Made by a program: the position numbers and the translations under genes | Shown here: positions 9,001 to 50,855 of the stretch, one piece after another | Layout of the letters: the number at the start of each line of letters is the position of its first letter | Position numbering within the stretch: the first letter of the stretch is position 1 | Origin: Patiria pectinifera | Taxonomy: Eukaryota > Echinodermata > Asteroidea > Valvatida > Asterinidae | Assembly (NCBI GenBank): GCA_029964075.1 | Contig: CM057141.1 | Span: forward strand, 12,028,001 to 12,092,000 | Length of the DNA stretch: 64,000 nucleotides | Direction of reading: 5' to 3' | The notes under the pieces: generated by a model | Database searches by the model: none | What the model was told of the DNA's origin: nothing | What the model saw: the letters and a program-made list of their open reading frames with translations, nothing else

Positions 9001-12000
9001 TCGGGTAATTATCAGCACCCAGACTCTAAGTGGTCTTAAACAGAGTGATAAAAACCTCCGAAGCACACATTTATTCCCTTATTATAAGAAGCCTGACCTT
9101 TTTAGGAGCTCCATGACCTCTGTGACCCATTCCTGACCTGCCTGGGTCATGACCTGACTCTGATCCTGAGGATCCGCATACATGACGAGGGTGTTAGGAT
9201 CTACCAGGAGATCCTCTTCTCTGCTTGTCACTCCCTCCTCTACCAGCAGCGCCTTACCTCCAGCGAGCTTCACAGTCTGAGCCAGCTGCTTGAACTAGAC
9301 CAAGAAAAACCAAAAGATTAAAATAGCAATCTCAACCCTTACCAGTCATGCTGTCTATCACAAGTTCGGCCAAAAGTACATTGCAAGTCAATTCAAAAGT
9401 CTTGTCACTGATGTGCAGGGTATGCATGATCATATTTCCATCTAAATGGGCAGATATTCATGAAGTCTTGGCTAAGGAATGCACTACATGTAATGCTGGA
9501 TGTACAGCTGCAATAGACTGAACCACTGACCCCCGCCTCCTAACATCTGGACCAATCACAGCCATGAATGAACAAGCAAACTTAACCAGTATTACAGTTC
9601 AGTCCAGTGCAGTCCAGTCCAGTGCAGTCCAGTCTAGTCACTAGTCCGCTCCCAACTTACACCCAAGTTAATAAGTCCAGTCACAAGTAACAAGGAATGA
9701 GTAATAATAAAAGAATGCCTTCGTCCCAGTTTACTTGAATAGTTTGTGACTTGACTTAAGACTGGATGGCTTGTCAGAGACTTGTGATGGGTTTTTAGCT
9801 AGGGCTTGTGATAGGCTGGTGAGGGCTTGTGATAGGCTGGTGAGGGCTTGTGATAGGCTGGTGAGGGCTTGTGATAGGCAGGTGAGGGCTTGTGATGGGA
9901 TATGATAGGCTGGTGAGGGCTTGTGATGGGCCTGTGATAGGCTGGTGAGGGCTTGTCTGGTGAGAGCTAGTGACAGGCTGGTGAGGGCTTGTGATGGGCT
10001 TATGATAGGCTGGTGAGGGCTTGTGATGGGCTTGTGATAGGCTGAAGAGCGCTTGCAATGGGCTTGGGATAGGCTGGTGAGCGCTTGTGATGGGCATGTG
10101 AAAGGCTGGTGAGGGCTTGTGATTGGCTTGTGATAGGCTGGTGAGGGCTTGCAATGGGCTTGTGATAGGCTGGTGAGGGCTTGTGATTGGCTTGTGATAG
10201 GCTGGCGAGAGCTTGTGATGGGTTTGTGATGGGCTGTTGAGGGCTTGTGATGGGTTTGTGATAGGCTGGCGAGGGCTTGTGATGGGCATGTGAAAGGCTG
10301 GTGAGTGTTTGCGATGGGTTTGTGATGGGCTAATGACAGGCTGGCGAGGGCTAATGACAGGCTGGCGAGGGCTTGTGACAGGCTGGTGAGGGCTTGTGAC
10401 AGGCTGGTGAGGGCTTGTGACAGGCTGGCGAGGGCTTGTGATGGGCTTGTGACAGGCTGGCGAGAGCTTGTGATAGGCTTATGAAGGCTTGTTATGAATT
10501 TGACTTCAACCCTGACCCTTCTGCATCAGCATTTCTGCTAGAATTCTTCCACAATATTGCAAAATTATTAATTCTGCTAGGTACTACCAATGGCATATTC
10601 TTTGTTATTCAATTTCAAGCAGGTGAAAGCCCTATGTGACATACATGTAATGGCGAGTTTACAAAATCCCAAAACCTCCGATTGGGTCTTTGAAAGACCC
10701 CAGATGATTATAAAAATTTATCTCATTTGTATAAAGAGAATCAGTCAAAGGTAAAAAAAGAAGGAAAATTGTTTTTCAACACCACTGTGAGTGTTGCAAA
10801 ACCCATACTGTATGTTATTCATTTCTGTTTTATTGTAAGGCCAAATAAAAAAAACCATATTTAGCGTCCTGCCTTTAAAAAAAAAGGAAGGAGGCCTTTT
10901 TTTTTTCAAAATGGCTGCCCGACCCATTTTCCAAAACGACCGGCTGGGACTATTTTTCAAGATGGCCGCCAGCTTTTTCTTAAAATGGCCGCCATAGATG
11001 CAACAGACAAAGAGGCCAAAATGATGTCACTGTTTAAAATTGATCAATTATCAAAAAAAAGAAGAAGAAAAACAAGGAGGCCAGCAGGGACGCTAAACAT
11101 TTTTTTAATTTTGCTTAAATTTGCAAAAATAAGTGCAATGCTGTTTTTCCTTTCATCAGAAGCTTTACCTGTTTTTGAGCAAGGAACATCATTGTTTTTC
11201 CTTGGAAGAGTGTCTTGCGATCCGTGTTCGCCTGGAATGATACATCATCCTCTTTGATAGCCGTTTCTGCTATAACTGGCTGAAAGCTGAACAAAAAGGA
11301 CTCAACAACATCAGAGAGTTACATTACTTGTTAAATATCTCTACATCAGCTGAAGCACCAAACAGCTTCGTGTAGTATTTCAAATAATTCACAATGCAGG
11401 ACAGAACCAAGCCTCTGTAAGCAAATTTGCTAACTCAACACTCTTCAATTCACCCATTTTATCCCTCCTGCTGTTGTAAGCAGTCACAGTCAAAAAATCA
11501 ATCCTCTTCCCTTGCCATGCCTTTAATGCAGGCTAGTCAACAATAGTGAAACCATATGTCTATAAACAAGCACTATGACTTGAGTCAAATTCATTCAACA
11601 TACGTATATAGCAGGCAAGTTGTGGGCACAGTTGGTTTATCAATCAACTACAGTCATAGCATAGCTGTATCAAGTAAAGGGCCTGTCACATTATATGCGC
11701 TTTCATAGGAGACCTTACGGCGACCAAAAATATCAAATAAATTTTAACAATCGCAGCGAGGACGCAAGAACATGAAAATTTTCTGTCCCAAGTGGCCAGA
11801 AAATAGCTCAAGCTACGCTCATACTGTGCTCATCTCACGCTTACGATGAGCTCAACTTGCTCTCTATGCACCCCTGTCAAGCCCAATTACTCGATCTATT
11901 CGCTGCCGCTGTGCTGTCACTGCGCTCACACTACGCTCTGCTCGCTGTTGATACGTCCTAGTAGCTCGCGTCGCGCTCTCTATTCGACCAGAATACGCTC

Positions 12001-30000: not shown

Positions 30001-32183
30001 TCGATGTTAAAGCACATGACTTCCGTCTTCTTGGCAATGATCTGCAGGCCAATCTTTTTTGCACTCTCCTTCCACGCTGAGAAGCAGAGCTTGTGCCTAC
30101 TGCACCGAATCTGAGACCAGAGCGATGTCATCAGCAAAGTCAAAGTCGGTCTCTACAACAGCACTCACCTGTCAGCTTTGCCTTGGTGAGAGAATGAAAC
30201 CCAGCTCCTTCTCCCTCCCCGCGATTGCTCGCCTCAGAGCAGTGACATGTAATTTCTCTACAATTTCTCTCCTAATGTTAGACTAACATTAGACCTAATA
30301 GAGACTTTTTCAACATATTACACAGTTTTCACATGAAGTATCTCTGAGGTACAACTACAAGAACAACTTCAACAAGGTACGCCCTAAGCTAAAAAGTAAA
30401 AAACGTCTTTTTTCTGATTTCAAAAGTAGCATCAGGATGCAACAAAGCAAAAAAAACCTACAAAATAAGCCTAAATGTGAAAATCAAAATTTGGCAAAGT
30501 GCGACACGTTTTTGTACATGTGGATATGTGGCCTATGTTTACGGAGGCAGTCCAGTAAATAGGCCACATTTATGGGGCTGTTGTGCCCATTCTTGAAAAT
30601 CACGCATTCTTAAGAATGTGCATGCACATTCTTAAGAATGTGCAACTGGATCCTTGCGCAATCTTCGCAAAAAATAACTCTTCCAGATTGAGCGCACATT
30701 CTTAAGAATGCGCGACAAGATAACGGTCTTGTCGATGCCGAGCACCGGCTGCGCTTGGCAAGTCTAGCTGCATCCTCGTTCACTGATTCTCAATAATTAT
30801 ACTGTTGCAACGCAAGGCGCTGAAATGTAGAGTGGATATGATATGGGGGGGGGGACCGGGAAAAAATAAGAGACATAATAATACTAGTGGAAAGAATTCT
30901 GATTTAATTTTGGGATAATAAAAGCGGGGGACGTAAGAATGAAGAATGTGAAGAATGAGAATGAATACTGCGACATCCCATAGTGCTAATGCTTTTTCCC
31001 ATTTAAATTGCCACCAATTTATTGTTCACACCCCACCATTACGTCTGGATTCTATCAAGTCAAAAGAGCAATTTTGGCAGCTTCTGGACATCGTTTTTTT
31101 TCGTGGCATGCATATGATACATACAGGGACTTGTAACTTGTCTAGCCTAAACAAAGCACTTCCCAGACTAGTTCCCAGTCCTCCGTTATTACAAAACTTC
31201 CCATAGTGGGCAGAAAAAAGCAATAATAACAGGTTTAATTTGATTCAAATTATCGTAGTTATACGAGTACAGAAGCATAGAACATTTTCTTTCCTCTTTA
31301 TATAAAGATAGTGGATATTTTGCCGGAGGTAATGACGGCAAACTAACGTTTACTCAAGGTTTGCCGGCGGCAATCCATATCAACAGAGGGCGCTGTACTC
31401 TTTAAGATAGGGCTGAATTATAAGATGTTTTAAATTCCCACCAAAAGATGAGTAGCACGTTTGGTGTAGTGGTTAAGCAAAGGCTCTAGTAAGCGGGATG
31501 ACTCGGGTTCAATTCCGACCGTAGCACATTTTTAAGTTGTTTTTTTTCTAATCCCCAAATAAATAAGAATATTCTTCTTTTATTATTTTAACATGTCTCA
31601 AACATTTTTTTGCAGAGTAGTACATTTTCTTTTTCAGATTTGTGGCTCTGGAGGATTTTTTTTAAAAGGGAAATAAAGTCCGAAATTATAAAATGGTCTG
31701 AATCCCATCTTGTGAATACGAGGTTACAACGATAATTTTGGCATGGAGCCAGACTAAAATTTGTCACCGGAAAATGTGTAAGTACAAAATAACAGTAACT
31801 GCGCATGTTCAGTGCATATCCGGCAAACTAACGTTTACTAAATGTTTGCCGTCTCCCATGTCTCCGGCATGCAAAATATACACTGCCTTTAAATTGTTTC
31901 CCTTTTAACCGCTATACATTCTTAAGAACGCGTGCTCGTTCTTAAGAATGGGCGCTCATTCTTAAGAATGCGCGCTCATTCTTAAGAATGCGCGCACATT
32001 CTTAAGATTGCGTGATTTTCAAGAATGGGCACAACAGGCATGACAGGGCCAGTCAGTGTGCTGTTGCTGTTGCCGGGTTTCATTACTTCCAATTCCATCC
32101 ATTAATCCCATTATTAATCCCATGATTTACACAACAACATTGAAATACATACCTGGCACACGTATGTTTTCTAAAAGCCACAT
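3..32183 (-). CDS. NBN: Nibrin (NBN), MRN complex subunit; 12 exons, C-terminus outside the window
   Basis: Exons (minus, 5' to 3'): 32183-32153, 28292-28242, 27557-27475, 25767-25616, 13728-13569, 12924-12821, 11286-11169, 9294-9098, 7424-7333, 4267-4069, 3679-2977, 152-3. All borders are GT/AG and phases are continuous, giving 680 codons before the window edge. The start is MWLLENIRVPG, matching the MW(K)LL start of nibrins and their phase-1 first intron. The FHA domain fills residues 1-104, with the phosphopeptide-binding pattern G25-R26 and S40-R41-K42-H43 at nearly human positions. BRCT1 is about 105-193 and BRCT2 about 195-330. Residues 330-630 are low-complexity and include an SQTQ site, a plausible ATM target. 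The last exon ends in NNFKKFKK, the MRE11-binding motif. The C-terminal ATM-binding tail should lie beyond base 1. Nibrin is the nuclear adaptor of MRE11-RAD50-NBN in break repair and checkpoint signalling. Introns are loaded with transposons, and intron 4 hosts two GPCR genes. Confidence 0.93.
720..1874. mobile_element. hAT-type non-autonomous element with GGCCTT-rich subtermini
   Basis: The ends CAGTGATGTAG and CTCCAACACTG are imperfect terminal inverted repeats that fit the hAT YARNG rule. The element is bordered by an exact 8-bp target duplication, GCTTCGAC (712-719 and 1875-1882). Both subterminal regions (about 735-870 and 1778-1865) are arrays of GGCCTT/AAGGCC-type repeats. It has no transposase frame. 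A second hAT MITE is inserted inside (1429-1716). It sits in the last NBN intron visible here. Confidence 0.85.
1429..1716. mobile_element. 288-bp hAT MITE nested in the larger hAT element
   Basis: Terminal inverted repeats AAGGGCGGATCCA / TGGATCCGCCCTTG, with an 8-bp duplication CGTGATGA (1421-1428, 1717-1724). Internal poly-C tracts lie near each end. It is younger than the 720-1874 element that it interrupts. Confidence 0.85.
2172..2610. mobile_element. Mariner-like hairpin MITE (TA duplication), arms about 200 bp
   Basis: The element starts CAGGGCGAGT and ends ACTCACCCTG, each flanked by TA. Nearly the whole length folds back: the block with AAACCCAAATGTC, GAAGTTCTGC and CTTTTAGTACAAGAATCATT on the left recurs inverted on the right. 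A related 176-bp copy is at 35095-35270. Located in an NBN intron. Confidence 0.85.
4302..6627. mobile_element. 2.3-kb hAT-type element 34 bp upstream of an NBN splice acceptor
   Basis: The ends TAAGGATGTGA and TCACATCCTTA are inverted repeats obeying YARNG, with an exact 8-bp duplication ACAATGTC (4294-4301 and 6628-6635). Subterminal sequence is rich in palindromic boxes (AAACGTTT at 4330-4380 and 6546-6580; ACGTGTACACGT at 6598-6610). No convincing transposase frame was found. On the transcribed minus strand only 34 bases separate it from NBN exon 10 (4267). Confidence 0.85.
6727..6803 (+). other. tRNA-like sequence (SINE-head type, Ser-like)
   Basis: It has an A-box-like TGGTCGAGTGG and a perfect B box GGTTCGAGTCC within a 5-bp T stem (GTGGG/CCCAC), followed by a T run. 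The anticodon stem TCTGC/GCAGG closes an 8-base loop and the acceptor strands do not pair, so it is not a functional tRNA. It is best read as a tRNA-derived SINE head or a tRNA pseudogene. Confidence 0.5.
7787..8121 (+). repeat. Dispersed TTAAAGGGAA-ended repeat, copy 1
   Basis: Short inverted ends TTAAAGGGAA...TTCCCTTTAA. The interior (ATCAATTGCAAAGAAAATG, ATTAGGAGCAG, CACCAGGAGCCA) recurs at 24470-25075 in the same orientation and at 21982-22476 inverted. Likely a MITE family; all three copies lie within NBN introns. Confidence 0.75.
8600..9070. repeat. Dispersed repeat with CTTAAAC/GGTCTTAAAC boxes
   Basis: Contains TCATAAATACTTAAGACAG, GGTCTTAAAC boxes, TTCACAATCCTCACGTAGGC and GGTAATTATCAGCACCCAGA. 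The same blocks occur in opposite orientation around 61560-62125, showing one repeat family in the NBN and DHX35 introns. No coding content. Confidence 0.65.
9795..10490 (+). repeat. Minisatellite, GGGCTTGTGATAGGCTGGTGA-like 21-bp unit
   Basis: About 700 bp of imperfect 21-bp units (AGGGCTTGTGATAGGCTGGTG), with 32-bp variants carrying a second GATGGGCTTGT. Lies in the NBN intron between exons 7 and 8. The long minus-strand open frame across it is an artefact of the repeat period. Confidence 0.9.
11677..12416. mobile_element. TIR element AAGGGCCTGTCACA, about 740 bp
   Basis: The ends AAGGGCCTGTCACA and TGTGACAGGCCCTT are inverted repeats with TA-rich borders (TAA left, TTA right), suggestive of a Harbinger-like or other short-TSD element. 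The interior is rich in CGCTC/GAGCG words and has no conserved frame. It interrupts a copy of the repeat seen uninterrupted at 42807-42875. Confidence 0.75.
15982..17145 (+). CDS. Intronless class A (rhodopsin-like) GPCR, 387 aa, nested in NBN intron 4
   Basis: One uninterrupted frame encodes a seven-helix receptor. Landmarks: an N-terminal NSS glycosylation site near residue 11, GN (N47) in TM1, LAVAD (D74) in TM2, DRY at 126-128, a long polar third intracellular loop (about 205-305), TWLP around W320 in TM6, NPLIY at 359-363, and a Cys-containing C-tail suited to palmitoylation. The usual TM3 cysteine (3.25) is absent between AGKQ (93-96) and the helix, although a cysteine remains in the short ECL2 (C171), so the canonical disulfide is probably missing. 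I cannot name a ligand; similarity is general to peptide/amine-type receptors of invertebrate lineage-specific expansions. The start at 15982 is the first Met; a second in-frame Met lies 6 codons on. It shares long identical stretches (DRYDCVCRPQKRWFNPRR; RKTTRMLFVTSLVFILTWLP) with the receptor at 20741, so the two arose by duplication. Confidence 0.9.
   Translation: MFVKTSMADLNSSSVDVCEADADTVYKGTVLEITWMSILAAFGIPGNALILRVYWMKKHKTTTHILIMGLAVADLMASITLIGFIMRIGLILAGKQVPEKWSYIPIGLNDALMGVTVGITACIAADRYDCVCRPQKRWFNPRRAKIILLVVVVTAVAAEAPHLVCIIIQSCAVTTIYSMAIQGAGFVLALLMIGLCYGKVYATIRRHVRVGISNSTHRASHDCPAGANATSRLRIEEMTPRRLQKRIVWTASDSNLDSSNCGALSACSSTQPHPRPKACKTISGECSARDIAHKRPTNTKLHRKTTRMLFVTSLVFILTWLPSWIALAILYSGSIQDKNVACVLLNLVSYTYLTNNVLNPLIYGLANRCFRDDCKRELHKLYTLCRC
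18349..18597. mobile_element. Foldback MITE with GGGCCAATTTCATAGAGCTG ends
   Basis: The left end GCCCAATTTCATAGAGCTGC and the right end CAGCTCTATGAAATTGGCCC are inverted. Further inward, AACTCCATG and GGTTACCAGCC also recur inverted, with many GCTTAAGC words. A degenerate relative begins at 49379 (CAATCTTATAGCGCTGCTTA). Confidence 0.8.
20741..21907 (+). CDS. Intronless class A GPCR paralogue, 388 aa, nested in NBN intron 4
   Basis: This is an intact single-exon receptor. The N-terminus carries NST and NFS glycosylation sites (residues 3 and 14). TM1 has LGN (N50), TM2 has SAD (D77), DRY is at 129-131, TM6 contains TWLPSW, and the TM7 NPLIY is followed by a basic helix-8 segment RRFRDECKKELHK. 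The TM3 entry (AGKQFYSEKVYIV) has no cysteine, and the very short ECL2 (about 170-180) has none either, so the canonical TM3-ECL2 disulfide is entirely absent. The paralogue at 15982 retains only the ECL2 cysteine. The third intracellular loop is long and rich in Ser/Thr/Asn. The first ATG is used; an upstream untranslated exon cannot be excluded. An AATAAA lies at 22016-22021, about 110 bases after the stop, inside a dispersed repeat copy. Ligand unknown. Confidence 0.9.
   Translation: MENSTMDNDNFKYNFSDMNEEEDAWVNINPYLVMEIVLCAVVFVFGTLGNSLILRVYWMKRCKTTTHILIMALASADLMVCLTQPFYITEASFALAGKQFYSEKVYIVVNVTNMLAAVSVEITAVIAVDRYDCVCRPQKRWFNPRRVRKVIVTVAVLSMFSEVPDMLRNIFNIEVTEILARIIQIGGFATALLLITVCYSMVYMRIRRHVKVGIWSRQDQGTFGTDRNTKPSPGNTPAIKMNDIVHQPALPVPVTERTLSGESTNSSAVRPTNKHVGWNNRASTLLSHTSAGKSPNNALLQRKTTRMLFVTSLVFILTWLPSWTSIALGLTVFSESKDKNLSDILNYYIPTTCYINNAVNPLIYSLSNRRFRDECKKELHKMSNLCSV
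21982..22476 (-). repeat. Dispersed TTAAAGGGAA-ended repeat, copy 2 (inverted)
   Basis: Inverted relative to the copies at 7787 and 24470. It begins 75 bases after the stop codon of the second GPCR and contains the AATAAA at 22016-22021, so a mobile repeat may supply that gene's polyadenylation signal. Confidence 0.7.
23742..24396. mobile_element. TIR element CACCCGATTTCAT..., GACGCGTCG-rich
   Basis: The ends GCACCCGATTTCATCAAAC and CTTCGTGAAATCGGGTGC form inverted repeats. Both ends carry many GCGACGCGTCG and TACGACG palindromic words. No frame of note. It shares its terminal core with the element at 54574-55287. Confidence 0.8.
24470..25075 (+). repeat. Dispersed TTAAAGGGAA-ended repeat, copy 3
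   Basis: Same family as 7787-8121. It carries an extra block with GGTCAGCCGACCAGCG, a palindromic core also seen in altered form in copy 2 (GATCGGCCGATC). Lies between NBN exons 4 and 5. Confidence 0.7.
25130..25556. mobile_element. Long foldback MITE, arms about 180 bp
   Basis: The left arm words GAAACTTTCC, AAGCGCTGAAG, AAAAGTTGCAC and GCGAGATTTTCAA recur inverted on the right up to about 25550, with a loop near 25330-25370. It lies 60 bases downstream of NBN exon 4 within the following intron. Confidence 0.75.
26384..26643. mobile_element. 260-bp MITE with 34-bp TIRs
   Basis: TGTGATGCGATCAAG...GAGTCGTTTGTCG at the left end is matched by CGACAAACGACTC...CTTGATCGCATCACA at the right end. 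The interior is poly-A containing and non-coding. NBN intron 3. Confidence 0.8.
29640..30290 (-). pseudogene. Non-LTR retrotransposon reverse-transcriptase remnant
   Basis: The minus strand reads FDFADDIALVSD, the RT catalytic (F/Y)ADD box. After a stop and frame shifts it continues KKIGLQIIAKKTEVMCF, FIYLGSYISSTDKDI, then ALFRASVESILLYGSEAWTL. This is the fingers/palm-to-thumb part of a LINE-type RT. Stops and frameshifts show it is dead. It is inserted in NBN intron 1, in the same sense as NBN. Confidence 0.8.
31310..31885 (+). mobile_element. MITE with GGATATTTTGCCGG TIRs and internal tRNA-like block, copy 1
   Basis: The ends AGTGGATATTTTGCCGGA and the inverse TCCGGCATGCAAAATATACACT, each followed inward by CGGCAAACTAACGTTTACT. 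Inside are AACAGAGGGCGCTGTACTC, a tRNA-like block (31451-31527), and AAATAAAGTCCGAAATTATA. Copy 2 at 46627-47192 is collinear and similar over most of its length. Confidence 0.85.
31451..31527 (+). other. tRNA-like sequence inside MITE copy 1
   Basis: The A-box-like TTGGTGTAGTGGTTAAGC and B-box-like GGGTTCAATTCCGACC have tRNA spacing. Acceptor strands do not pair; instead GTAGCAC occurs directly at both ends. The homologous block in copy 2 is 46770-46846. Confidence 0.5.
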
Positions 32184-36659: not shown

Positions 36660-39600
36660 CTAGCTTTCTCCCTGGACTGGACACCTCTTGAGGATCTTAG
36701 CCAGGTTACTCTGCAGTAGGAGGATGTTCCTGCGTGCGGTTTCGTCCATTGTCAAGTCAACTTGGGGAGACGAGGTACCAACCGTCAGGGCCTGGGGGAG
36801 AGGAGAGAAAACCAAACCTAAAATTTGGACTTGTATGAAATCTGGTCTCTTTCTACTTACCTTACAATTACAAGGACTGACTCTAATCACGGATCCTCTA
36901 TACAAGGATAAACGACTCATTTGAGCTTGTGTACAAAATGTACGGAACGGTTTGTCTAGGGGCGTGATATGCCGCGTCCGCGCAGAGAACATACATAGAA
37001 CTTGTAGAACAATGCGCACGCCATGATCGCTGACAGTGGCGTCCTGACAGAAATTTGACCACTGAAAGACTGCAGTTGCGCGCCAAGTCTAGTGCATGTG
37101 CACGCAAGTGCCATATCATGCCTCTAACATGTCTAACCAGAAATTTGGGGAAGTTGTTTATCCTTGTGTAGTGTATTTTTTTTTTCCCATGACTCCTTGG
37201 AAAAAATATACTGCAAACTAAACTTGCGTGATGCCCTGGCATGCTGGCAGTATTTACACAGTAAGTTAGTAAGCACACTTTTCTGTTGACCTAACCAAAG
37301 TCAACGATGACCTTATAAGACCCCTAGATGACCTTTGACCTTAAATGCCTCAAGTCATCTGAAGTCCCCCTACCCAAAGATTATTGTTACCAAGTTTGGT
37401 TGAAAGTGAAGTCTGACTTTTCACATGACAGCACTAAACAGGCATACAACTGGAAATTAAAAAAAAAAACAAACAAGGAAACTCCAAACCATACAAGACT
37501 TTGTGGAGTATTAATTTTTCAATTTGTAACAGCATTCATGAGAAGTAAAAAACAAGGAAATCAACAGATCCGAGAAAAAATTGCACGCCTGACTAAATGC
37601 TTTATAACCTAACCAAAATGGAACACACACACAGACTAGCATTCTTGTTCCATACTTTTGGGGATATACACTTGTCTGTACGAGGAATTTGTGGGGACCG
37701 CCAGCAGAAAGTCCCCATAACTTGGTCTTAATTTGCCTGACAATAAAAAAGTTCCCAATTACGCGGTATAGGCCTACCCACCCATACACAAGGACACACA
37801 TACAGAATACACTATCCTAATATCCCACTTTCTTGGGGGATAATAATCAAACTTCCATGACTTTTCCGGGATAGCTTTAAACTCCAGTTTTTTCCATGAC
37901 AAGGGGAACCCTGTGCTGCAGTGCGTAACTTACCGTGCCGTCTGCCAACGGAATCACAACCTCTGGTTTGGACAGATCTCTCTTGGGTGGCATGATGATG
38001 GGACTGCCTGACAGAGAGATGATTGTCTCTGCTCGTTTAGCTTCTCGCATCACGCAGGTAGCCGGCGTCACCGGTAACCTACAACAAAAAATGTAACACA
38101 CGATTCAAAAAGACGAGCTTGCACAAGGCAGTATTTTAAACGAGCTCATTTGAAAGTAGCATGGGATGTTTTGTCATAGTTGTGACGACTTACGGGAATG
38201 CCGATATCTGCTGTAATTTTACGACTTACATGAATAGTCTTTTGCACTCATGATGCATTGCACTAATTGGCTTCGATTTACCCTGGATTATCTCCTTAAT
38301 GCTTGAGTTGAATCCAGCAAAATAATCCTCGAATTGTATCATCACGTTTGGGGTATTGATAGTGGAGATCACGATACATTATGTACACGCGCACAGTAAT
38401 GAATTAAATGCGTGCGTGGTCCGGTATATATACTGTACCACGCACGCATTGACTGCAGCAATAGCAGTCATTCAATAAGACGACCCCCAAAATGGACAGA
38501 GCACATGCGTACAGCCTAGAGGGGGTAGGCTACTGGTATTGATATGCTCACGAGGCATATGCGATGTATGCAGTAGGACACCCTTTTTCGACACCAGGGA
38601 TGCAGCGATCACCGGCCGTGCGAAACCACTTTTCAATCGACACTTTGCCAACCGCAGTACAGGAAGTTGATGTCAATGCGTGATTTGTTGAATGCCGACT
38701 TACACAAAGGATTTTGTAATGCTTTTTATGGAAAGGGGACCGAGAGTAACACGACGACTTGAGCGAAATGGCGACTTATAAAAGCCGACTTAGAATAAAA
38801 AAATTCAATGGAAATGCATTACGGACAATCAGGACTTTAGTCAGACGGCCGACTTGAGTGATTTGACGAGTTGTACGATGTCTGTTTAGCCGGAGCTTAC
38901 TGTAGTTTGAGAATGGACTTGAGACTCCATGACTTGTGATTGACTTGTGAGGATTTTGTGAGGAAAATTGCAATGATAATATGTGACAAAAAGAAACTTT
39001 GTGAGCTAGGTATCGTTTGTGAGAGAGTACACAGTTTCAAACTTGGGATTTAAATGGCCCATGAAATGTAATTTTTTTTAAATGCAGTCCCAGTAAATGA
39101 CCCTTTGTGTTCCATTTCACATTATTTTCAATTTTCATTTTGCCATTTTTTAGGACATATTGTTGCCTTTTTTATTGTTTATATTTCCATATTCATGAGC
39201 AAAAGTGTGATGTCATTTCAGGCAGAAAACTCAAATTTTACACCTATTTCAGCACCAACATTTGCCAGATTTTTAAGCAAATTTAATGTTATCAATAATT
39301 CGTGCTACAAGTAAATATAATTTCAAGAGAACATCTAAAATGCTCTTGAATATGGAGAGGGATAGACACAGTAGGGACTGGGGAAAGAGGGGCACAAAAT
39401 GTACCTTGGATCAAATTTGGGCGTGACCATGGGTGTGTCCCAGCCTGATGACAGTGCCCCTGATTTGCCCGTCCTGGTCGCAGGCGTCACAAACTGATTC
39501 CGCGTGGTTTTCCTGCAAACATAGAAGGAAGTAAGAAATGATTGGCGTTGGGAGAATTGCCATTCAAAAGAGAAACTAGAATTGTGTCTATTTTGAAACA

Positions 39601-42600
39601 GAATACAGGCATTTCTGGATGTAGGGATTGATTTTCTGTGCCATCTGACATTGTTGTATTAAATTGAGTACGTTCTGTAATTCTGTTGTTACAATATGCC
39701 AGTGTTGTAGGACTGGAGTCCAGTCTCGGACTTGAGTCGGACTCGAGTCACATTTTTTGTGACTCGGACTCGACTCGAGTCACATTGGAAAATGACCTGG
39801 ACTCGGACTCGACCATGATGACTCGGACTCGAGCTTGGTGACTCGTGACTCGAGTCATGTATTTTCATCAATAGAAAAAAACATAATGCATTCTAAGGTA
39901 TACTCAGTGTCACAGATTACAAAACAATCGAAAAGTGGAACAAAGTGGGACGTCAAGAGAAGGGGTAGGGATGGGAAAGGATCATTGAGGATTAATGTTT
40001 TGATGAAAAAACATGAAGGGAAGGGATGGAGGATTTTTTTTAGGGATGGGAATTAAAAGGAAAACACATTGGGTCTAAACAACATGTACACACACAAGGT
40101 AAACTATATACATTGGGATTTACTTAAAAGACAGAATGGATGATTGAAATACAATTTTAAAGAAAATTAGATTAGTTTGGTGAACAAATGACTCGTGACT
40201 CGGACTCGGACTCAAGGCTTGTGACTTGAGACTCGAACTTGGACTCGAGGCTTGTGACTCGAGACTCGGACTTGGACTCGAGGCTTGTGACTCGAGACTC
40301 GGACTCAAGGCTTGTGACTCGAGACTCGGACTCGGACTCGAGGCTTGTGACTCGAGACTCGGACTTGGACTCGAGGCTTGTGACTCGAGACTCGGACTTG
40401 GACTCGAGGCTTGTGACTCGAGACTCGGACTTGGACTCGAGGCTTGTGACTCGAGGCTTGTGACTCGAGACTCGGACTCGAGGCTTGTGACTCGAGACTC
40501 GGACTTGGACTCGAGGCTTGTGACTCGGGACTCGGACCCAGCATTGGTGACTTGACTACAACACTGCAATATGCTGCAAAAACTTGAAAAATTCATAACA
40601 AAATCACATGATGTAACATCATCATCATCACGACATCCCAAGTTTTATACACTGAGGATGACAGACATACCTTCTGGTGGACCTACGGACTGTCTGTGGC
40701 TCTGTGTTGTCCTGCGTGTTCATATTCTGATTGGCTGTCAGTACACTCTGTGTCCTTGTCGAACGTTTAGACGTTGTCGCCGTGGTTGTCTTTTTCCTGC
40801 CCTTTGCTCCTTTCTAAAAAACAGAATAATATAACACTGAGTTATATGACACAAATTCAGTCATATTGTGAAATGATCCTTACTTGGCAAGACCGTGGCA
40901 TCAGAGCATGATAAATAATTGGAGTTATGCTGAACAGAAGTAGGGTGCATACCTATGTTCCCCAGTACCTATGTTCCCCAAAATCCTTAGGGTTAGGGTT
41001 AGGGTTAGGGTTACATGGTTACGGATAGCTTAGGGTTAACCTACCCGTACCAATCTAACCCTAAGTATTTTGGGGAACATAGGTATTGGGGAACATCGGG
41101 TAGCCCCCCACAAGTAATGTGACTTTATTTGAAGTGAAATGACGCACACCAATTTGTACATTTCCTTGAATGTATAGAACAAAATTCTGTAAACGTTTGA
41201 TAATTCTACAACAGATTTTTTTATTAGAACAGCCTCAAATCATCCCATAATTGTTGTTCTTCTTCTTCTTCTTCCAAGCTCTGCGCCAACTTTATAATGT
41301 TGAAGACTTGGGCACATTGTTGGGTTCGCAACAATGTTGTACTGGAATTGTGGATGTCTCGCTTGTTATAAGATCAGCAGATTGTTCTGATTTTTTTTTG
41401 GTTTTTAAGGGAATTTTTGCGGCACGTAAAATACTCAAACAGCTTAGACTATTGCAGGAGGACCTACCTTCTTTGCAGTCGTTGCAGTCTTAGATGTAAT
41501 CTCCTCTACGCCGCTTTGCGCTTCAGACGCTGATGATTCCACGGACGATGGGGTCACCTTGCGTTTCTTGGATGCAGGCATCAAGGTCTGGGTGGTGATG
41601 GAGGATGCGAGTGAGTCCGTTATCTCTGTGATATGCTGCAAGGCGTTGTTGTTGATGCTGCCTCCGCGAGCTGTTGAGAGGGAAAAAGCAAAAACCACCA
41701 GGTCAAAGAGGTGAAGGACGAAGGTACAACTATGCCAACCTGACTCCACACATGCTGGCTTTAGGGACTCGACATAATAAGGAACTGATGCTGATTCTGA
41801 ACTGGTAATGATTCTGCTTGGCATTGACTTGAAATACAATCGACCAAAAAAGAAAGTCCCCCCTTAATACTTTTTTGTCTAACTCAAAAACTACTGGGCA
41901 CATCTTGCTCAAATTACGACTGATCAGTGCAGAAATTCCTTAGCAATCCAGCCATACTTTTTATTTGGCTGAAAACAGTGGTAATATGTACAAAATGATG
42001 CAATTTATGACAAGTGGTACTGAAAAAAAAAGTTGCACTTTTGTACACTTGCAAGGTGAGCTGAACCGCAACATGCACGTATACAAAAGTCCAACTGTTT
42101 TCGGTATCATTTGTCATAAATTGCATAATTTCGCACACATTATTACCGTTTTGGGCCAAATAAAGAGTATGGCTGGATTGCTAATGAATTTCTGTACTGA
42201 TTAGTCGTTGCTTGAGCGAGAGGTGCTCAGTAGTTTTTCAGTTACACAAAAAAGTATTAGAAGGGGGGACTTTCTTTTTTGGTTGAGTGTATTTCCTGAC
42301 ATAAAAAGGACAAACCTGGACAACATACAAGTCATTAACTACATATGAAGTTGTGAATCACTGGGGTTTGTAAAAAGTGTAGTCACTGTCTTTACAATGA
42401 ACAGTGACCAAAGCCGCAGTTTTTCTCAAATATTCTAGAGAATCATTCCTCCCTTTTTTCTGTACTAATTCAGGAGGCGGTATGTGATCAGAATTGTTGA
42501 GTGCTATCTGGAATCAATTCTTAAGGTGTTAGAATCAGCTAAAATCAGAGCTTTGATTCCATCAAAACAAATGTTGAGTTGTGATGGCGATTGACCAATT

Positions 42601-44393
42601 GCCTGGGTTACCCACACGAAGTCGAAAAAAAGTTATACATTGAAACAAGGGCAAAATTGCATTTTCAGGGAGTTGGGTTGTTAAGGTCAACAAACTGAGA
42701 AGTTCAAAACCTTCCTTTGCAAACATACATTCTGTGCCAAGTTGTCCTTTCAGTCAACATCAATCAAGTGACTGTTTTCAACAGTTAAGAGCTCCCAGCC
42801 CACGTAAAGCAGGATTGACTGGCTGCGACTGTTTATGTAACTTGAAACAGCTATGCTTTGACTGTAGTTGATTGATAAAACGGCTGTTCACCCAGATTCC
42901 TGCTTTTGTCTGATGACTGAATTTGACTTGTCACAGTGCTTGCTTAATGACCTGACCATCTGTGACTAGCCTGTGTAAAAGGTATGGCAGGGGAAGCGGA
43001 TGGAATTTTTGACTGTCTGTGACTGTTTAAACAGTAGGAGGATAAATTAGGATATTCCATGCAATAGAACACTTTCAAATTTTTAAGGCACACATAGAAA
43101 GTCAGAACAGGAAAATAACCAGATGTTCGAAAAAACGTTGCCTGCTTTACTTACCCATAAAGTCTGCTTTGGTCATCTCTCGGATGCTTTTGGGCAGTTT
43201 AAATAACTCCATGGTGAATGCGCTATTGATGGCGTTACACATCGTCTTGGCCTCACTGCGAGCTTGAGCAATGATGTTGGCAACTAACAAGTTTTAACAT
43301 GAAAATAAATAACAAAACAATTTAATGAGCAAATCCACCAAAGACCAAAACAAAAAAGTCTCTGGTTTTTGGTATGCGTGCGCATCGCCGTAGCCATGTG
43401 CGTCGGCAAAATGTAAAAAGTTTTTTTTTAATGAAAGATGATGTCTCAAAACCGCCAAACTCACAGGTTTGACTGGAATCCTGCTGCTGCACAATTTTAA
43501 CGTGTTTTTAGATGGGATACGATAGAGTATAAGCTTTATGTGGCCTCTCTGGACTCCCATATATTTGCACTTAAGTTTAGTCGGACACCATTTGCAGTCA
43601 TCAGCCGACCTTTGAAGAAAAAAAGAAAAGAAAAAAGAAAAGAAAAAAAAAAGCCACGTCGCCGCACCACTTTTGGCGCAAGCTCCATACCAGAAACGGG
43701 AGACTTTTTTTAAGAACCAAAGAGGGATCTTTTTTGCCAACGTTTTACAACAGTGAAATCAGTTTTTGAAATATTCAGTCATGAAACATCTGTATAACTT
43801 ATTCCATTTTATTATCATTTTGGGTTTCTCCAAATGTTAAATACCTAGAAATGTTTTTTTGACATTCGGAGACTTGAAACCAACCCATTATGGTAGATTT
43901 CTTTTTAAATTCCTTTTTCAATTTTCAGGATAATGAAAAGGGGGGGGGGGGGTGGGTCACACCCCTAAACTCCCCCTTGGCAATGGCCATGTACATGTAT
44001 ACACCATGTGAAGCTACTATCTCCAATAAAGATGTGGTTTTGGGGCAAAAAGTGTTGCCTTGACATTCTAGTATTTCCAATGCTTTATGCACTATGATGC
44101 AGTACATTTTACTGACGACAGGACTAAAATATGAAGTAAACATCTGTTATTTTGTATTTGGAACCATCCTTCTATTTATCCTAAACATTCACTTCACACA
44201 GTGTGTCCAAAAAGGTCTTCCAAGAATAAGTGCCCGATGGAAAGGATCGGTTGTTCTAACCTTTCATGTCAAAATCCTTGAGGTAGGTCTCTATCTTCTG
44301 TTGTCTCTCCTCGTTGCTAGAGTTGCCGCTCTCATCTCCTGACACAGTCTTGGCAGCCGACGCCACCACCTTGGTCCGACGCTTCTTTGGCAT
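36660..44393 (-). CDS. CDCA8: Borealin (CDCA8), chromosomal passenger complex subunit; complete, 330 aa
   Basis: Seven coding exons (minus): 44393-44261, 43283-43155, 41670-41468, 40813-40671, 39512-39405, 38078-37934, 36791-36660. They total 993 nt including the stop, with GT/AG borders and continuous phase. The start gives MPKKRRTK, a basic N-terminus like other borealins. The segment RQQKIETYLKDFDMK and then FKLPKSIREMTKADFMG matches the N-terminal helices that bundle with INCENP and survivin. Exons 3-4 are basic and disordered (KKRKV, RRSTR). Exon 5 carries the Thr-Pro-rich stretch (WDTPMVTPKFDPR) that resembles the phosphorylated TP motifs of vertebrate borealin, and exon 6 has ISLSGSPI. 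Exon 7 (RNILLLQSNLAKILKR) is the C-terminal dimerisation helix. At 330 residues it is longer than human (280), mainly in the linker. The complex directs Aurora B to centromeres and the midzone. The gene is head-to-head with AIRIM. Confidence 0.92.
39700..40566. mobile_element. hAT-type element with GACTCG-array subtermini, copy 1
   Basis: The ends CAGTGTTGTAGGACT and GACTACAACACTG fit YARNG. An exact 8-bp duplication CAATATGC flanks it (39692-39699, 40567-40574). Subterminal arrays of GACTCGGACTCGAG-type repeats occupy 39717-39860 and 40190-40550; the right array has 33-bp higher-order units (GACTTGGACTCGAGGCTTGT...). The interior (39860-40185) is unique and non-coding. Located in CDCA8 intron 4. 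Confidence 0.9.
40190..40550 (+). repeat. Tandem array of GACTCGGACTTGGACTCGAG units
   Basis: About ten imperfect copies of a 33-bp unit built from GACTCG, GACTTG and GGCTTGT words. Open frames on both strands across it are artefacts of the period. It forms the right subterminal part of the hAT element at 39700-40566. Confidence 0.9.
40950..41100. repeat. Small inverted-repeat element containing (TTAGGG)4
   Basis: CCTATGTTCCCCAAAAT on the left is matched by ATTTTGGGGAACATAGG on the right, each partly duplicated. Four perfect TTAGGG units lie at 40987-41010 and AACCCTAA at 41060-41070. Best read as a MITE with telomere-like sequence in CDCA8 intron 3. Confidence 0.65.
41830..42297. mobile_element. 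Foldback MITE with AAAGAAAGTCCCCCC arms
   Basis: GAAATACAATCGACCAAAAA/AAAGAAAGTCCCCCCTTAATA at the left recurs inverted at the right end, and the whole 468 bp is nearly self-complementary. Located in CDCA8 intron 2. Confidence 0.8.
42807..42875 (+). repeat. Uninterrupted copy of the host repeat hit by two other elements
   Basis: Reads AGCAGGATTGACTGGCTG, GACTGTTTATGTAACTTG, AAACAGCTATGCTTTGACTG and TAGTTGATTGATAAA. The same sequence is split by the hAT element at 720-1874 (within GCTTCGAC) and, on the other strand, by the element at 11677-12416 (within GTAACTTG). Confidence 0.75.
43350..43711. mobile_element. MITE family GTCTCCGGTTTCTGGTATG, copy 2
   Basis: Collinear with 32817-33172, including AAACCGCCAAACTCAC and GTCGCCGCACCAC. 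Lies in CDCA8 intron 1, about 66 bases upstream of the exon 2 acceptor on the minus strand. Confidence 0.85.
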
Positions 44394-45347: not shown

Positions 45348-47366
45348 CTGTCGAGCGCAATTTGAGTCCTCCGCGCAGGTTTAAACTTGCACGCACAAGT
45401 TTAAACTTGCGCGTGCATTAATTTCCTTACTACAAATTGCGCACGCAAGTTTAAACTTGCGCGCTACATAGATTTTTCCCATGCATGCAAAGCCGCCAAA
45501 CTAATTTTTTTCCTGGTAAACTCATGCAGATATGTAACATTATTTTTAAAAGCAGATTTTTCTCCAATTAATAGCACCACTGTGCTTCGTGAGACAGTGC
45601 CTTACTGCCTTTTTTGAAACATTTTATTAAAGGTATTATGCTAATGAGGTTGACTGTGTGGGTGGTGGTAATGCAAACAATTTATGCACTTTCATGATGT
45701 GTATGATTGTTTATGGCTCGTTAGGATTTTTGTTAAATAAACAACATATTTATTCATTAAGTCGAATCAATTAATTAAATTAATAAATTTAATTTATTAA
45801 TTAAATCATTAATCGATTTATTTACTTTTTAAAATAATTTCCATTTTATATGCATAGCGTGTTTTAAGTTAGAGCATGTAAACATTAGTATGAATTATTG
45901 AGCCTGCAAGTAAAACAATTGTTTAAAGTAATAAATACAATTAATTAATTAAATTAGTAATGAGTTCATTAATTTTTTTTTTCAAATTAGGGGGCCTATG
46001 CATTTTTGAAGTGTACACAGCGCTCGAAATGTTATGCAAAGTATTTTTAAAAACAAAATGAAATATTGTACCGTCCAATTAATTAATTGCTAAATTAATA
46101 AAATTAGTATTTTTTTAAGAATAAGTACTTTTTTAATTGTACAGTACATGTGATATAATTTAAAGCATTAAAAAAAAATGTAAATGATTACTATAACGTT
46201 AAAAATCTTGAACGATTGAAGGGATGATATTCATTCTTTAATAACGGGCTACCCTTAGGAAATTATGATTTATTTACATTTAAGAATATAAATAACACGC
46301 TAATTAGTTTTACATATGAAAGGCAAAAAACCTTGAAGTTTGTCTCCATTTTCGAACAACTTCAGTACCGTACTCTCTCCAAGCAATCACCGTGCTTATT
46401 GATTGCTTGCCTGGTCCCCTTCCCGCCCCCGCCCCCTAAAAACCGTCTCTGATAAGCACTGCTAAATCTCAATGTTTCTTTTCATTGACGCTAATTGAAT
46501 TCCACTTTTTATTTCTTTCTTTGTTCATTAATTTATTCCATTATTTATTAATTTATTTCTCCATGACCATGTAGCCTAGGGCTAGGCCCCTACTTGTCAT
46601 GCTTGTGTTTCGAACATTTATTTTTGGTAGTGTATATTTTGCCGGAGGTAACGCCGGCAAACTAATGTTTACTAAAGGTTTGCCGGCGGCAATCCATATC
46701 AACAGAGGGCGCTGTACTCTTTAAGATAGGGCTGAATTATAACATGTATTGAATTCCCACCAAAGTTGTGTAGCACAGTCGGTGCAGTGGTTAAGCAATA
46801 GCTCTAGTGAGTGGGATGTCCCGAGTTCAAATCCTGACCCCGCCACAATTTTAAGTTGTTTTTTTCCAATCCCCAAATAAATAAGAATATTCTTCTTTTA
46901 TTATTTAATAATATGTCTCAAACATTTTATTGCAGAGTATTGATTTTTCTTTTTCAGATTTGTGGCTCTGGAGGATTTTTTTTAAAGGGAAATAAAGTCC
47001 GAAATTATAAAATGGTCTGATTCCCATCTTGTTAATACAAAAATACAACGATAATATTGGCATGGAGCCAGACTAAAATTTGTCACCGGTACAAAAAAAG
47101 TACAAAAAAACAGTAACTGCGCATGTTCAGTGCATATCCGGCAAACTAACGTTTACTGAAGGTTTGCCGGCTCCGGCAAAATATCCACTGCCTTTATTTT
47201 TCTTCATCAATGAAAATCCCGCCCGCAAGGTTCTCAAATTGCGATCGCCTTTGCGCAAGTTGTAACGTGCGCACGCAAATTAAAATGGCGCGGTGTGATT
47301 TGCGTGCTTCGGGAGTCCCTCGCGCAAGTTTAAACTTGCGCGGGGGATTCAAACTGCGCTCGACAG
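45348..47366. mobile_element. Composite TIR element with GTTTAAAC palindrome clusters
   Basis: The ends CTGTCGAGCGCAATTTGAGT and the inverse (CAAACTGCGCTCGACAG) are inverted repeats. CAAGTTTAAACTTG boxes cluster inside both ends. It contains the nested MITE copy at 46627-47192. Its left flank (45225-45347) matches the left flank of the 30578 element, so the two are paralogous insertions or parts of a larger repeat. Confidence 0.8.
46627..47192 (+). mobile_element. MITE with GGATATTTTGCCGG TIRs and tRNA-like block, copy 2
   Basis: Collinear with 31310-31885. The ends TAGTGTATATTTTGCCGGA / CCGGCAAAATATCCACT, each followed inward by CCGGCAAACTAACGTTTACT. The tRNA-like block is at 46770-46846, with B box GAGTTCAAATCCTG. 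Confidence 0.85.
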
Positions 47367-47620
47367 CGCTAACATTAGTAACAAGTGACATGTCTGAATT
47401 TTACATTTCTTCCGAAATATTTCACATCGATATCTCTTACCTTAGAATCACGTAATAGAAAGGAATAAATTCGGTGTACATCAACACGAAAAACTCGAAA
47501 AAATGATCTCATTAAAATAATTAAAACGGAAATTAACAACATCAACAATGCAAAATCGATCCTAACATGCCTAATAAATCTTGTCGATTGAAAACCGCCA
47601 ACAAATCAAAAATATGTTAG

Positions 47621-47965
47621 CGCGCCCTCTCGTGACATAACTGTTCAGGACATAAGAAAAAGCGCCCTCTTGTGAAAAATGATAGGGCGCCCTCTTGTGA
47701 ATCAAGTTTTAAAAATTAGACAGGGCGCCCTCTTGTGAAATAAATCGTTGACGAAAAATTCAATAGGGCGCCCTCTCGTGGGCACAAAGCAGTTACAGTT
47801 TTGAACGTCATATGAAGGGCTCCCTCTTGGTGTGACAAGCGTTTTAAAAAATTATATGGAGGGCTCCCTCTTGTGACATAATTAGTTTTATCCAATAAAG
47901 TAGGGCGCCCTCTCGTAACAATATATTTTTACACAAATATGTGAAGGGCTCCCTCTTGTGGAAGA
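47621..47965 (+). promoter_or_regulatory. Array of nine same-orientation GCGCCCTCTTGTG (CTCF-like) motifs
   Basis: Motif starts: 47622, 47662, 47687, 47725, 47768, 47820, 47864, 47906, 47948 (spacing 25-52 bp, mostly about 42). Consensus AGGGC(G/T)CCCTCT(T/C)GTG(A); spacers are dissimilar. The reverse complement TCACAAGAGGGCGCCCT resembles the CTCF core CCACNAGRGGGCGC at most positions. It lies 590-935 bp upstream of the AIRIM start in the divergent region. CTCF binding is inferred, not shown. Confidence 0.6.
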
Positions 47966-48555
47966 AACATTGTCAGTGCAAATGTAAGTGTGTACATTGT
48001 CAGACTGTAGCTGCTTCCGAAAACCTGTACTAGACTAGGCCTATTGAAATTTGTGCTAAATATTGTCTGGACTTAATTATAATAATGCAGTATTATATGT
48101 TCACATTGGTAGGACTGCTCATTCCTTGCAATTCTTTTCTATTAACATAGCTTGAGGAACCCTAGGCATGCTAGGGCTAGGCTAAAGCTCCTTCACTGTG
48201 CACTGTATGCCATGTGTGGGGAACAGCTCTAACCCTGGGGCGGGAACAATTCAATATTCACACGTGGAAAGGGAAACTCTAAAGCTTGGATCATTTATGT
48301 CTTGGTTATTAAATGCTAAATGAAATTGTGCCCCGTGAAACATGCTGAAAAGTGCATCTCCCCAATTTAAAATTTACATTTCCCCCTTCCCTAATTCCCA
48401 ATGAGCATTAGAGCTGGGGTAAAGTTTTTATTCTTGTATTGGCTGAAGAGCTAGTAAAATTTTGTGATTTGGTTTGCATTTTATTTTCTGCAGTAGGCCT
48501 AGTCTCAGCCCAAAGATAAGCCCATCTACCTTCAGTCTCTCCATGAAATTTGAGA

Positions 48556-50855
48556 ATGTCACCAGTTCGCAAGACAACCACCAGCGCTGGAGGTGAAGAG
48601 ACAATTCATAAACAGCTGAGGAGATCCTTCAAGATGGTGGGCCAGCAAGTGACAGTCTGGCAGGAGGCATCGGAACGCTCCTTGTCGGTGGTGCAGTCGC
48701 TGGTCAACCACGCGGAGCAGCTGCAGTGCTGTCGCCGCGCTGCCAAGGACGGTTGCTCGGACGTCTTGCAGCGGTTTCCTGATCTGAAGGACAGGCTGGA
48801 ATTCAAGTTGTTGGGGTCCATGGAGGTGATCCTTGCCAGGTTAAAATCTCAGCTGTAAGTTAAGGGTGGAGCCCCATACTTTCACTGTCGCCTCTTGAGA
48901 CAAATGATTTGTGAAGCTGAACACCAATAGAGATGTTTCTTTTATTAACCCCCGTCCCAAATCCTCTTTGCGAATGGGGGATTTTGCAGTACTGAGGCTT
49001 TATGGCAAAAATGTGTGGCTGATTTGGGAGGATGCACTGTGTCATGGTCTGGGGCCGAACCTTGTGTTGTGCATAAAATTAGGCCTACATTATACTTCAA
49101 ATCCTCCGCACTGCTCCAGGATGTCACTGGCTCTGCCTCAACATTCTGACAGTGATTGCTGAAGGATTTTGCTGGATTGAGGCTGCCCCACGGTATGCTA
49201 TTTTTACATGGAGGCAGTTGGAGGATTTTGAAGGATTGAGGTTGCATCCTAGCAAAAACGCCTAGGGAATTAGGGTGAATAAAACTAATACATGTACCAA
49301 CGTTTGAAGAACAGGTCAAGGTCTGTTCTCAGAACAGTAACCGGGTTGGTTCATCATCCCCCAGCATACTAGCCTGTAGGGCCCAATCTTATAGCGCTGC
49401 TTAAGCCAATTTGTGCTAAGTTGAGCCTCCGTCTATCGAGACTGTAACCAATAAGCACATTGAAAGCACGCTTAACCCCAGAGGAAAAAGTTGCTTAAAT
49501 CAGTCACGTAACAATAGAAATCTCCAAGCGCGCGCAACTGTTAGCACATCCACGCCATGAAATAGCGCCTAAGCAGCAGCATGAATTTCAGCTATAGTAA
49601 GCGCAACTTTTCTGCTAACTGTTACGCAGCCTATGAAAGTGTCAGATTATCAATAATTTCTGATTTATTTCTGAATAAGCAGATAAGTCTAAACTCTTGG
49701 TTGTAGAGCGTACATTTAACAAACATCACGTGAGCAATTCAAATAGAAACTACTGATTCTGAAGTCTGTGTTACTTTGTTGTTTGGATAATTGTTGTTGC
49801 AGGCTGACTATGGAGGGAGTGTGTAAAAAACACACACAGCACAGTGCCTACTCGCTCAATGCATATCACATCCACTACAGGGAGGTGGGCGTGGCCAAGG
49901 GGTTGGAGGGATCTGCAACATGGCCGTCAATAGCAGACATGCTTCAGTGGCTTGCTAATGTGGATCTACTTTATCGAAGATTGTATCCTTTTCATTGTTT
50001 TCTATATTGTGTCCTTTTTTTTTTCCCCAAAGGTGGTGGGATTTAAATTGAAATGTTAAGTTCATTCCTTGACAAGTAAATATTGTCCAGATATGCTGAA
50101 AAGCAGTGGCTGTATGACACAATCTCTTACGATAATTTGGACGAGTTCCCAAGTTTGGTTAGCAGGTGGAAAAGATATGACGGGGAACTGACCGCTGTGA
50201 AAAGTAAGAGTAATTAATGTGACTGGCTCCGAGCTAACTCAAGCCCCAATTATTTTGAAAACAAGATTTTGCTCTAAATGTTAGGCCTATAACTCCCAAC
50301 TTTTTTTCTTTAACCAGTTTGCGTTGCAGGACGTGATAACACGCACTGGCTGATGGGTTAAAACGTCAAGATTGCCTCGACTCGCCTCCGGGTGAAGTCT
50401 TAACACGCTAATCCCTTGTGTCCTTTGTACACACACACAAAGTCCATGAAGTCTGTGGAGGCAGACCGTGTGTTGATCTTGAATTGGCCCTTTGTGCACG
50501 CCTTTTGTACAATTTACGCTCCAGTGCACACCCTAGAGTTTTAAAACATGAGGTTTCGGAAAGAAATATCATACAAATACTGTTCAAATACAAGTATCAG
50601 GACAATTTTGCCTTTTGCGAAAATCTAAATTTTTCGGCAAAAATAATCCCGGCACAAAGTGGTTAAAGCATTATGGCTTTATAAAATAATCTGTTTAGAC
50701 AGTAGGCTGCAAGGTCTACTTTTTTGTTCAAGTTGTTAGATTAATTTATATGGAATTTATCTTTCATTTCTACATTTTTTTCCAATTTTAGTATCTTGGT
50801 TTGTTTCTTGGCAGATGTTTTGGCTCACGTGGCATTCTTCATGGAGGATGGCTGA
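48556..50855 (+). CDS. AIRIM: AIRIM (C1orf109-like), ribosome maturation factor; complete, 210 aa
   Basis: Coding exons: 48556-48854, 49803-49982, 50091-50203, 50815-50855. They total 633 nt with the stop; borders are GT/AG and phases join. The ATG is preceded by an in-frame TGA within the same exon, which fixes the start. Recognisable family blocks: an N-terminal amphipathic helix with HAEQLQC, then FPDLKDRLEFK (human AEQLQ and FPDLKERL), PSIADMLQWLANVDLLYRR (human PSVADMLEWLQDIERHYRK), and the C-terminal NVLAHVAFFMEDG (human ILLNVSFFLEE). Length matches the human protein (about 203). In human, AIRIM links the AAA+ ATPases AFG2A/AFG2B to pre-60S particles during cytoplasmic recycling of RSL24D1. 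A consensus acceptor (ttttctgcag, ending 48493) just upstream suggests an untranslated first exon nearer CDCA8. A candidate AATAAA is at 51893-51898. Confidence 0.91.

Follow-up and report, generated by a model that had tools for sequence, protein, structure and literature searches.

A decayed tandem array of nine CTCF-like motifs at the likely 5' end of AIRIM in the sea star Patiria pectinifera

The window analysed here, a stretch of 64,000 nucleotides from the sea star Patiria pectinifera (contig CM057141.1, positions 12,028,001 to 12,092,000; C13 in our numbering of contigs), carries the genes CDCA8 and AIRIM head to head, as the first-pass annotation of this DNA had it, with CDCA8 on the minus and AIRIM on the plus strand. 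That annotation had also called both of them housekeeping genes, which does not suit CDCA8, a mitotic gene. CDCA8 (borealin) was recognised by a PF10444 match at about 43156-43281 (25.3 bits against a cut-off of 24.4) and by a PF10512 fragment at about 39386-39508 that stays below its cut-off (16.5 against 19.5 bits). An exon reading MPKKRRTK...KDFDMK starts at 44393 on the minus strand and is followed by a donor-like site; we take it to belong to CDCA8 from its KDFD ending and an apparent likeness to human borealin. AIRIM (C1orf109) has its ATG at 48556 on the plus strand and matches PF15011 with E-values of 1.3e-15 and 1.1e-20. In human, the accessible part of PMC7817982 describes the same C1orf109-CDCA8 pair (printed there as C1orf109-CDCA) as head to head; here, the distance from ATG to ATG is 4.2 kb. 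Between the two genes lies a motif array, which starts 3.2 kb from the CDCA8 ATG and ends 0.6 kb ahead of the AIRIM ATG. The features are:

43156..44393, minus strand: 5' coding part of CDCA8, comprising the exon with ATG 44393 and the exon with Nbl1_Borealin_N
47200..47599, no strand: CpG-rich stretch, CpG observed/expected 1.55 and 2.27
47620..47964, no strand: whole array, judged by its sequence a decayed tandem repeat with a unit of about 42 bp and AT-rich, weakly related spacers
47620..47638, minus strand: copy 1, CTCF-like, 19-bp matrix match of 12.9 bits
47660..47678, minus strand: copy 2, CTCF-like, 13.4 bits
47685..47703, minus strand: copy 3, CTCF-like, 13.5 bits
47723..47741, minus strand: copy 4, CTCF-like, 13.4 bits
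47766..47784, minus strand: copy 5, CTCF-like, the top-scoring copy, 20.9 bits, GTGG present
47817..47835, minus strand: copy 6, degenerate, 6.2 bits, 3' end altered
47861..47879, minus strand: copy 7, CTCF-like, 12.3 bits, GGGCTCCC form
47903..47921, minus strand: copy 8, CTCF-like, 8.5 bits
47946..47964, minus strand: copy 9, CTCF-like, 17.3 bits, GTGG present
47984..47989, plus strand: donor-like GTAAGT, candidate end (47983) of a putative non-coding AIRIM exon
48494..48855, plus strand: region of the first coding exon of AIRIM (C1orf109), acceptor-like TTTTCTGCAG before 48494

Since the donor-like site at 47984 could pair with the acceptor-like site before 48494, the 5' end of AIRIM probably lies where the array is. 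The array spans a step from CpG-rich to CpG-poor DNA, with CpG observed/expected ratios of 1.08 at 47600-47799, 0.53 at 47800-47999 and 0.13 at 48000-48199.

In the window, a 15-bp motif recurs nine times between 47620 and 47964, in one direction throughout, as the first-pass annotation had noted (motif on the plus strand, matrix match on the minus strand), with the prevailing form GGGC(G/T)CCCTCT(T/C)GTG. The copies, whose starts are the first coordinates listed above, follow each other at steps of 40, 25, 38, 43, 51, 44, 42 and 43 bp; the spacing, given before as about 42 bp, is thus no constant step, the mean being about 41 bp and the range 25-51 bp. When up to three mismatches were allowed, the window gave 11 motif matches, against a mean of 0.99 and a maximum of 4 in 100 shuffles: the nine array copies and two minus-strand matches, both inside the array, that stem from the palindromic half GGGCGCCC. 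The 3' end is altered in copy 6 (47817), and GGGCTCCC is read in copies 6, 7 and 9.

The complement of the motif resembles the core of the CTCF site. With a vertebrate CTCF matrix of approximate counts, seven of nine copies reach at least 12 bits and two of nine at least 17 bits within 345 bp, whereas 200 kb of background DNA, taken as 20 samples at regular steps along contigs C5, C6 and C7, contain 26 matches of at least 12 bits on either strand, and 7 for the reversed matrix. The array therefore scores above background in the kind of position-matrix scan that had been proposed, albeit with this vertebrate matrix in place of one from the same phylum, and the CTCF-like nature of the motif, already noted from its complement, is well supported by its sequence. 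The chief departure from the vertebrate consensus is a T instead of C at matrix position 4 (six of nine copies); position 8 is A or G. The form CACAAGAGGGCG stands here against the vertebrate CCACTAGGGGGCG. The mitotic role of CDCA8 had also suggested E2F or CHR elements, which we considered but do not favour, as the conserved part extends into CTCTTGTG, unexplained by E2F.

The word behind these copies is found throughout the genome. In 613.5 Mb on 1020 contigs, CGCCCTCTNGYG occurs 6,027 times, evenly split between the strands (3012 and 3015), and its reversed form 345 times; of the first 100 matches listed, all on C1, 41 end in TTGTG. For the exact 16-mer GGGCGCCCTCTYGTGA the genome holds 17 matches, against 0 for its reversed form; on reading all of them, we placed two in the window array and the other 15 in 12 distinct contexts, with a three-copy repeat family and a near-identical pair each counted once. 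In the flanks of these 12 contexts only an A at -2 and at -1 recurs (9 of 12 each), and no further position reaches two thirds, so that no longer conserved context emerges from them. Such a word, present genome-wide in mostly unrelated surroundings, is what would be expected of a protein site. A comparison with permuted words gave a mixed picture in 264 kb, made up of the 200 kb of background and the window with the array masked, where only GCGCCCTCT exceeds all 60 of its controls. There, GCGCCCTCT occurs 14 times, two of these being copies of one repeat, against a mean of 0.6 and a maximum of 2 for 60 permuted words, and CGCCCTCT occurs 20 times against a permuted mean of 4.0, a count reached by 1 of 60; CCCTCTYGTG, with 2 occurrences in the same 264 kb, shows no excess, as permuted words average 0.55 and 6 of 60 attain its count. 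Among the literature matches listed for GCGCCCTCT, no related use was apparent.

Several repeats carry the same word. In the window, one 19-mer with a CTCF-like core of 13.1 bits lies at 31377-31395 and at 46696-46714 on the plus strand, in two copies of one dispersed repeat, the second of which is accompanied by inverted arms at 46626-46647 and 47171-47192. In a dispersed repeat on C7 (L003, L004, L005), some 280 bp hold four or five motifs of the CCCTCTTG type, which point both ways, and two further places on C7, near 32.04 and 32.06 Mb, resemble it by eye. Sites of the CGCCCTCTAGCG type recur at steps of 0.5-1.4 kb in L028 (2895, 3448, 4233) and likewise at C1:6912353-6914114 and C1:7112437-7115274; from this spacing, repeats with longer units, too, may carry the CTCF-like word.

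The genome encodes a CTCF ortholog. The top match to the human CTCF fingers lies at C13:11122254-11123069 with an E-value of 1.2e-89, while the next gene reaches 4.1e-45, and forms one open frame of 733 amino acids, whose best PDB match is CTCF (7w1m, E 1.3e-90) and whose nine fingers align to human ZF2-ZF10. This agrees with the available portion of PMC13317027, according to which echinoderm CTCF has lost two fingers; the echinoderms described there combine, as here, a CTCF motif with a CTCF that is two fingers shorter. Fingers 2-5 are the same as in human at helix positions -1, 2, 3 and 6, whereas finger 6 reads QSSE (human QGTM) and finger 7 RADT (human RSDV), with changes at helix positions 2 and 6 and, in ZF6, also at 3; fingers 8-10 likewise differ from human at contact positions of the helix. 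The AGAGGGCG part of the motif, opposite the unchanged fingers, is vertebrate-like, and the part opposite fingers 6-7 departs. In the accessible text of PMC10094706, simulations show contacts of R339 (ZF3) and K365 (ZF4) with the G29-C30-G31 end, of Q418 (ZF6) with the central A and of R448 (ZF7) with a conserved C, and the equivalents of all four residues are kept in the ortholog. Because the residues that the simulations name for fingers 6-7 are among those kept, the agreement between fingers and motif, which would fit a native CTCF site, is suggestive only. The finger query gave 297 matches in total, many of them clustered on C17, C14 and C19; among the matches listed, clusters of C2H2 open frames lie at C17:13.07-13.22 Mb, C14:53.3-54.1 Mb and C19:22.2-28.1 Mb.

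How did nine copies come to stand in a row? The first-pass annotation had regarded the spacers as unrelated and had counted their diversity against tandem decay. We found instead that they are weakly alike. Nine spacers were scored, the ninth being the flank after copy 9, and their summed alignment score of 284 was reached by 0 of 1000 shuffles (149 ± 25) and by 0 of 1000 first-order Markov sequences (127 ± 40). The seven longer spacers between motifs gave 277 against 165 (shuffles) and 154 (Markov), again with 0 of 1000 reaching each. Plain aligned identity gives a weaker signal, namely 0.69 compared with 0.66 ± 0.02, the top shuffle of 100 being higher at 0.70; with a 12-bp motif boundary it is 0.72 against 0.64 ± 0.02, reached by 0 of 100 shuffles. 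For the array, TRF reports periods of 43 and 44, and the motif copies are mutually 85-86% alike. Copies and spacers are thus kin by duplication, as in a minisatellite, and the argument from spacer diversity fails because the spacers are related. For the same reason, we read the array from its sequence as the product of a tandem duplication that has since decayed, with the motif better preserved than the spacers.

Is such an array peculiar to this locus? A strict pattern for same-direction pairs was found seven times at three places in the genome, four of the seven pairs lying in the window array, and the spacers at the two other places are visibly different. A mass satellite, with the same unit at thousands of places, had been raised before as the ordinary alternative and is ruled out by this count and by the 17 occurrences of GGGCGCCCTCTYGTGA. 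A wider pattern (CGCCCTCTNGYG with a gap of 12-42) gave 32 same-direction pairs at 16 places, while about 0.92 pairs would be expected by chance from 6,027 single sites and the reversed control gave 0. By-eye merging of the C7 repeat family (five places) and of a duplicated place on C10 reduces the 16 places to 11; at six of the 16 the pairs are chained. The two opposite-direction patterns, the second of which starts with degenerate letters and may be less reliable for it, gave 0 and 0 pairs, which carries little weight at 0.46 expected for each. We read the five other arrays with their degenerate copies included:

C10 array: 5 copies, 35-48 bp
C16 array: 9 copies, 35-51 bp
C11 array: 6 copies of GCCCTCT, 38-41 bp
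C4 array: 6 copies, 44-55 bp
C8 array: 8 copies, 25-31 bp, a ninth with two mismatches omitted

In all six arrays, the window array included, the motif is more alike than the spacers, a comparison that favours preserved motifs since intact motif pairs served to find the arrays. Between arrays, spacer scores are at or near the control for 12 of 15 pairs. Mild likeness was seen for the window array (C13) with C11 (score reached by 2 of 500 Markov sets), C13 with C4 (3 of 500) and C10 with C16 (5 of 500), followed by C10 with C8 (26 of 500) and C16 with C8 (49 of 500), counts that are not probabilities because copies inside an array are kin; plain shuffles give a stronger signal than the Markov control. 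This likeness could reflect remote common descent, or a second element in common, among C13, C11 and C4 and between C10 and C16, and the arrays may not all have arisen independently. The L049 and L050 arrays, on different contigs, have a TTTGGCCAA-like stretch in their spacers in common, possibly the site of a second factor or a mark of common ancestry, and in both the window array and that of C4 (L052) the spacers tend to be T-rich and then A-rich ahead of the next motif. Degenerate arrays may be more frequent than the strict search shows, as one of the 20 background samples (L023) holds a looser four-copy cluster.

The surroundings of the five other arrays received a partial look, covering their open reading frames, with Pfam run on two of six frames for C16, on three of six for C8 and on three peptides. 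The C16 array has an NDK match (PF00334) at a distance of about 1.2 kb, and near the C11 array there is a DUF4659 exon below cut-off; within this look, no rule of gene context and no clear promoter was seen in the 3.2-3.5 kb around them. As a control for the word itself, the YY1-like word AAGATGGCG, with about 4,600 copies estimated from 2 in 264 kb, gave 23 same-direction close pairs (about 0.5 expected; reversed control 2). They occupy 21 places, compared with 16 for the CTCF word, and are chained at two of them. Tandem multiplication of words is therefore not special to CTCF, and the YY1-like word shows it at more places. Tandem AAGATGGCG with units of 17-38 bp was seen at C4:9364117, C5:5758575, C5:6016491, C9:1197560 and C21:37203045.

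The reading we prefer, with chances that we put at about even, is that the tandem CTCF-type array at the likely 5' end of AIRIM would act as a multivalent platform, opening the DNA locally and separating the regulation of CDCA8 and AIRIM. A unit of about 42 bp with one native CTCF-type site would have been duplicated in tandem, and later decay would have retained the core better than the spacers. We infer that several nine-finger CTCF molecules would bind adjacently in one direction and that, once bound, they could hold the DNA accessible and free of methylation at the start of the CpG-depleted AIRIM body. As a promoter-proximal insulator or tether, the array might then keep the regulation of the two genes apart. 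By vertebrate convention its sites would, as we assume, point toward CDCA8. A directional anchor is not claimed, because the accessible part of PMC13317027 reports for sea star and sea urchin neither a CTCF orientation pattern at boundaries nor an enrichment at loop anchors, and because CTCF sites are missing, according to PMC3784565, from the two insulators that have been characterised in sea urchins; the former source also puts the boundary enrichment of CTCF in its two echinoderms much below that in zebrafish. A bolder extension, to which we give a small chance, is that this lineage builds and retains dense one-way minisatellites of CTCF sites (5-9 sites at a pitch of 25-55 bp), in which avidity would replace single-site affinity after the loss of two fingers and insulation would be set by how many sites there are, not by the way they point.

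Several of the same observations would also suit an array of no consequence. A neutral minisatellite, grown from a unit that happened to contain a common genomic word, might be bound by CTCF and still have no selected role, and the retention of its motif would then reflect GC content, youth or ascertainment; the related spacers, and hence the origin by tandem duplication, speak for it, as do the 21 places with YY1-like pairs and the rather homogeneous 25-bp units of the C8 array. Against it stands the excess of motif over spacer likeness in six of six arrays, weakened by the use of the motif in finding them, and the C10 array, whose spacers are at the shuffle level (0.57 against 0.60) while its motifs are 0.93 alike. 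We regard this explanation as possible, on the doubtful side. We would say much the same of a promoter element that serves AIRIM, or both genes, and that would bind CTCF or some other factor and act by local activation without insulation or looping; it overlaps with the platform proposed above, so that the two are not exclusive. The probable 5' end of AIRIM, marked by the splice-like sites at 47984 and before 48494, and the fall of CpG observed/expected across the array agree with a promoter element, whereas the partial look at the five other arrays revealed no clear promoter beside them.

Two further explanations appear improbable. The copies could be sites of another zinc-finger protein, whose word would resemble that of CTCF by chance, and the clustered matches among the 297 of the finger query offer candidates; yet the word is genome-wide and even between strands, and its AGAGGGCG part suits those fingers of the sea star's own CTCF whose contact residues are unchanged, so that we give this little credence. 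Less credible still is a relic of a dispersed transposable element with several such motifs. The word does occur in the C7 family and in the 31377/46696 element, and the window spacers are mildly like those of C11 and C4, but strict pairs were found at just two other places, with visibly different spacers, and 12 of 15 comparisons between arrays stay close to the control level; on these grounds a transposon origin is disfavoured, though some repeats carry the word.

Clustered CTCF sites and tandem repeats that bear them are already known. The known tandem CTCF sites in mammals are spread over kilobases, against nine copies in 345 bp, 25-51 bp apart, at the present locus. The mammalian Pcdh, Igh and beta-globin clusters are like the window array in that CTCF-type sites stand together, and according to the available sections of PMC7087399 such clusters may insulate and set promoter choice. 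The DXZ4 macrosatellite, as far as the accessible text of PMC3218863 and PMC3491370 goes, shares with the array a tandem unit carrying a CTCF site, the human unit being 3 kb long compared with about 42 bp here. The available portion of the main text of PMC13317027 gives no description of dense CTCF arrays under words such as 'tandem' or 'homotypic', and among the matches listed from the open-licence literature we found no description of dense one-way arrays of short units together with a nine-finger CTCF.

On whether CTCF acts directionally outside vertebrates, PMC13317027 holds in its accessible part that more data are needed to tell a derived vertebrate mechanism from an independent loss. 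The six arrays, each with 5-9 sites in the same direction, allow a direct test. If the number or the direction of sites matters, one would expect the arrays to rank with the genome's strongest insulators, whereas an unremarkable Hi-C profile would mean that neither number nor direction is read. One half of the motif has been kept in vertebrate-like form while the other half and fingers 6-10 have changed, which makes a co-change of factor and site checkable. The window contains two other short repeats, an interstitial telomere-type repeat at 40987-41013 (TTAGGG, 4.5 copies) and a 0.7-kb array of CTTGTGATGGG-like units of 21-32 bp at 9781-10496.
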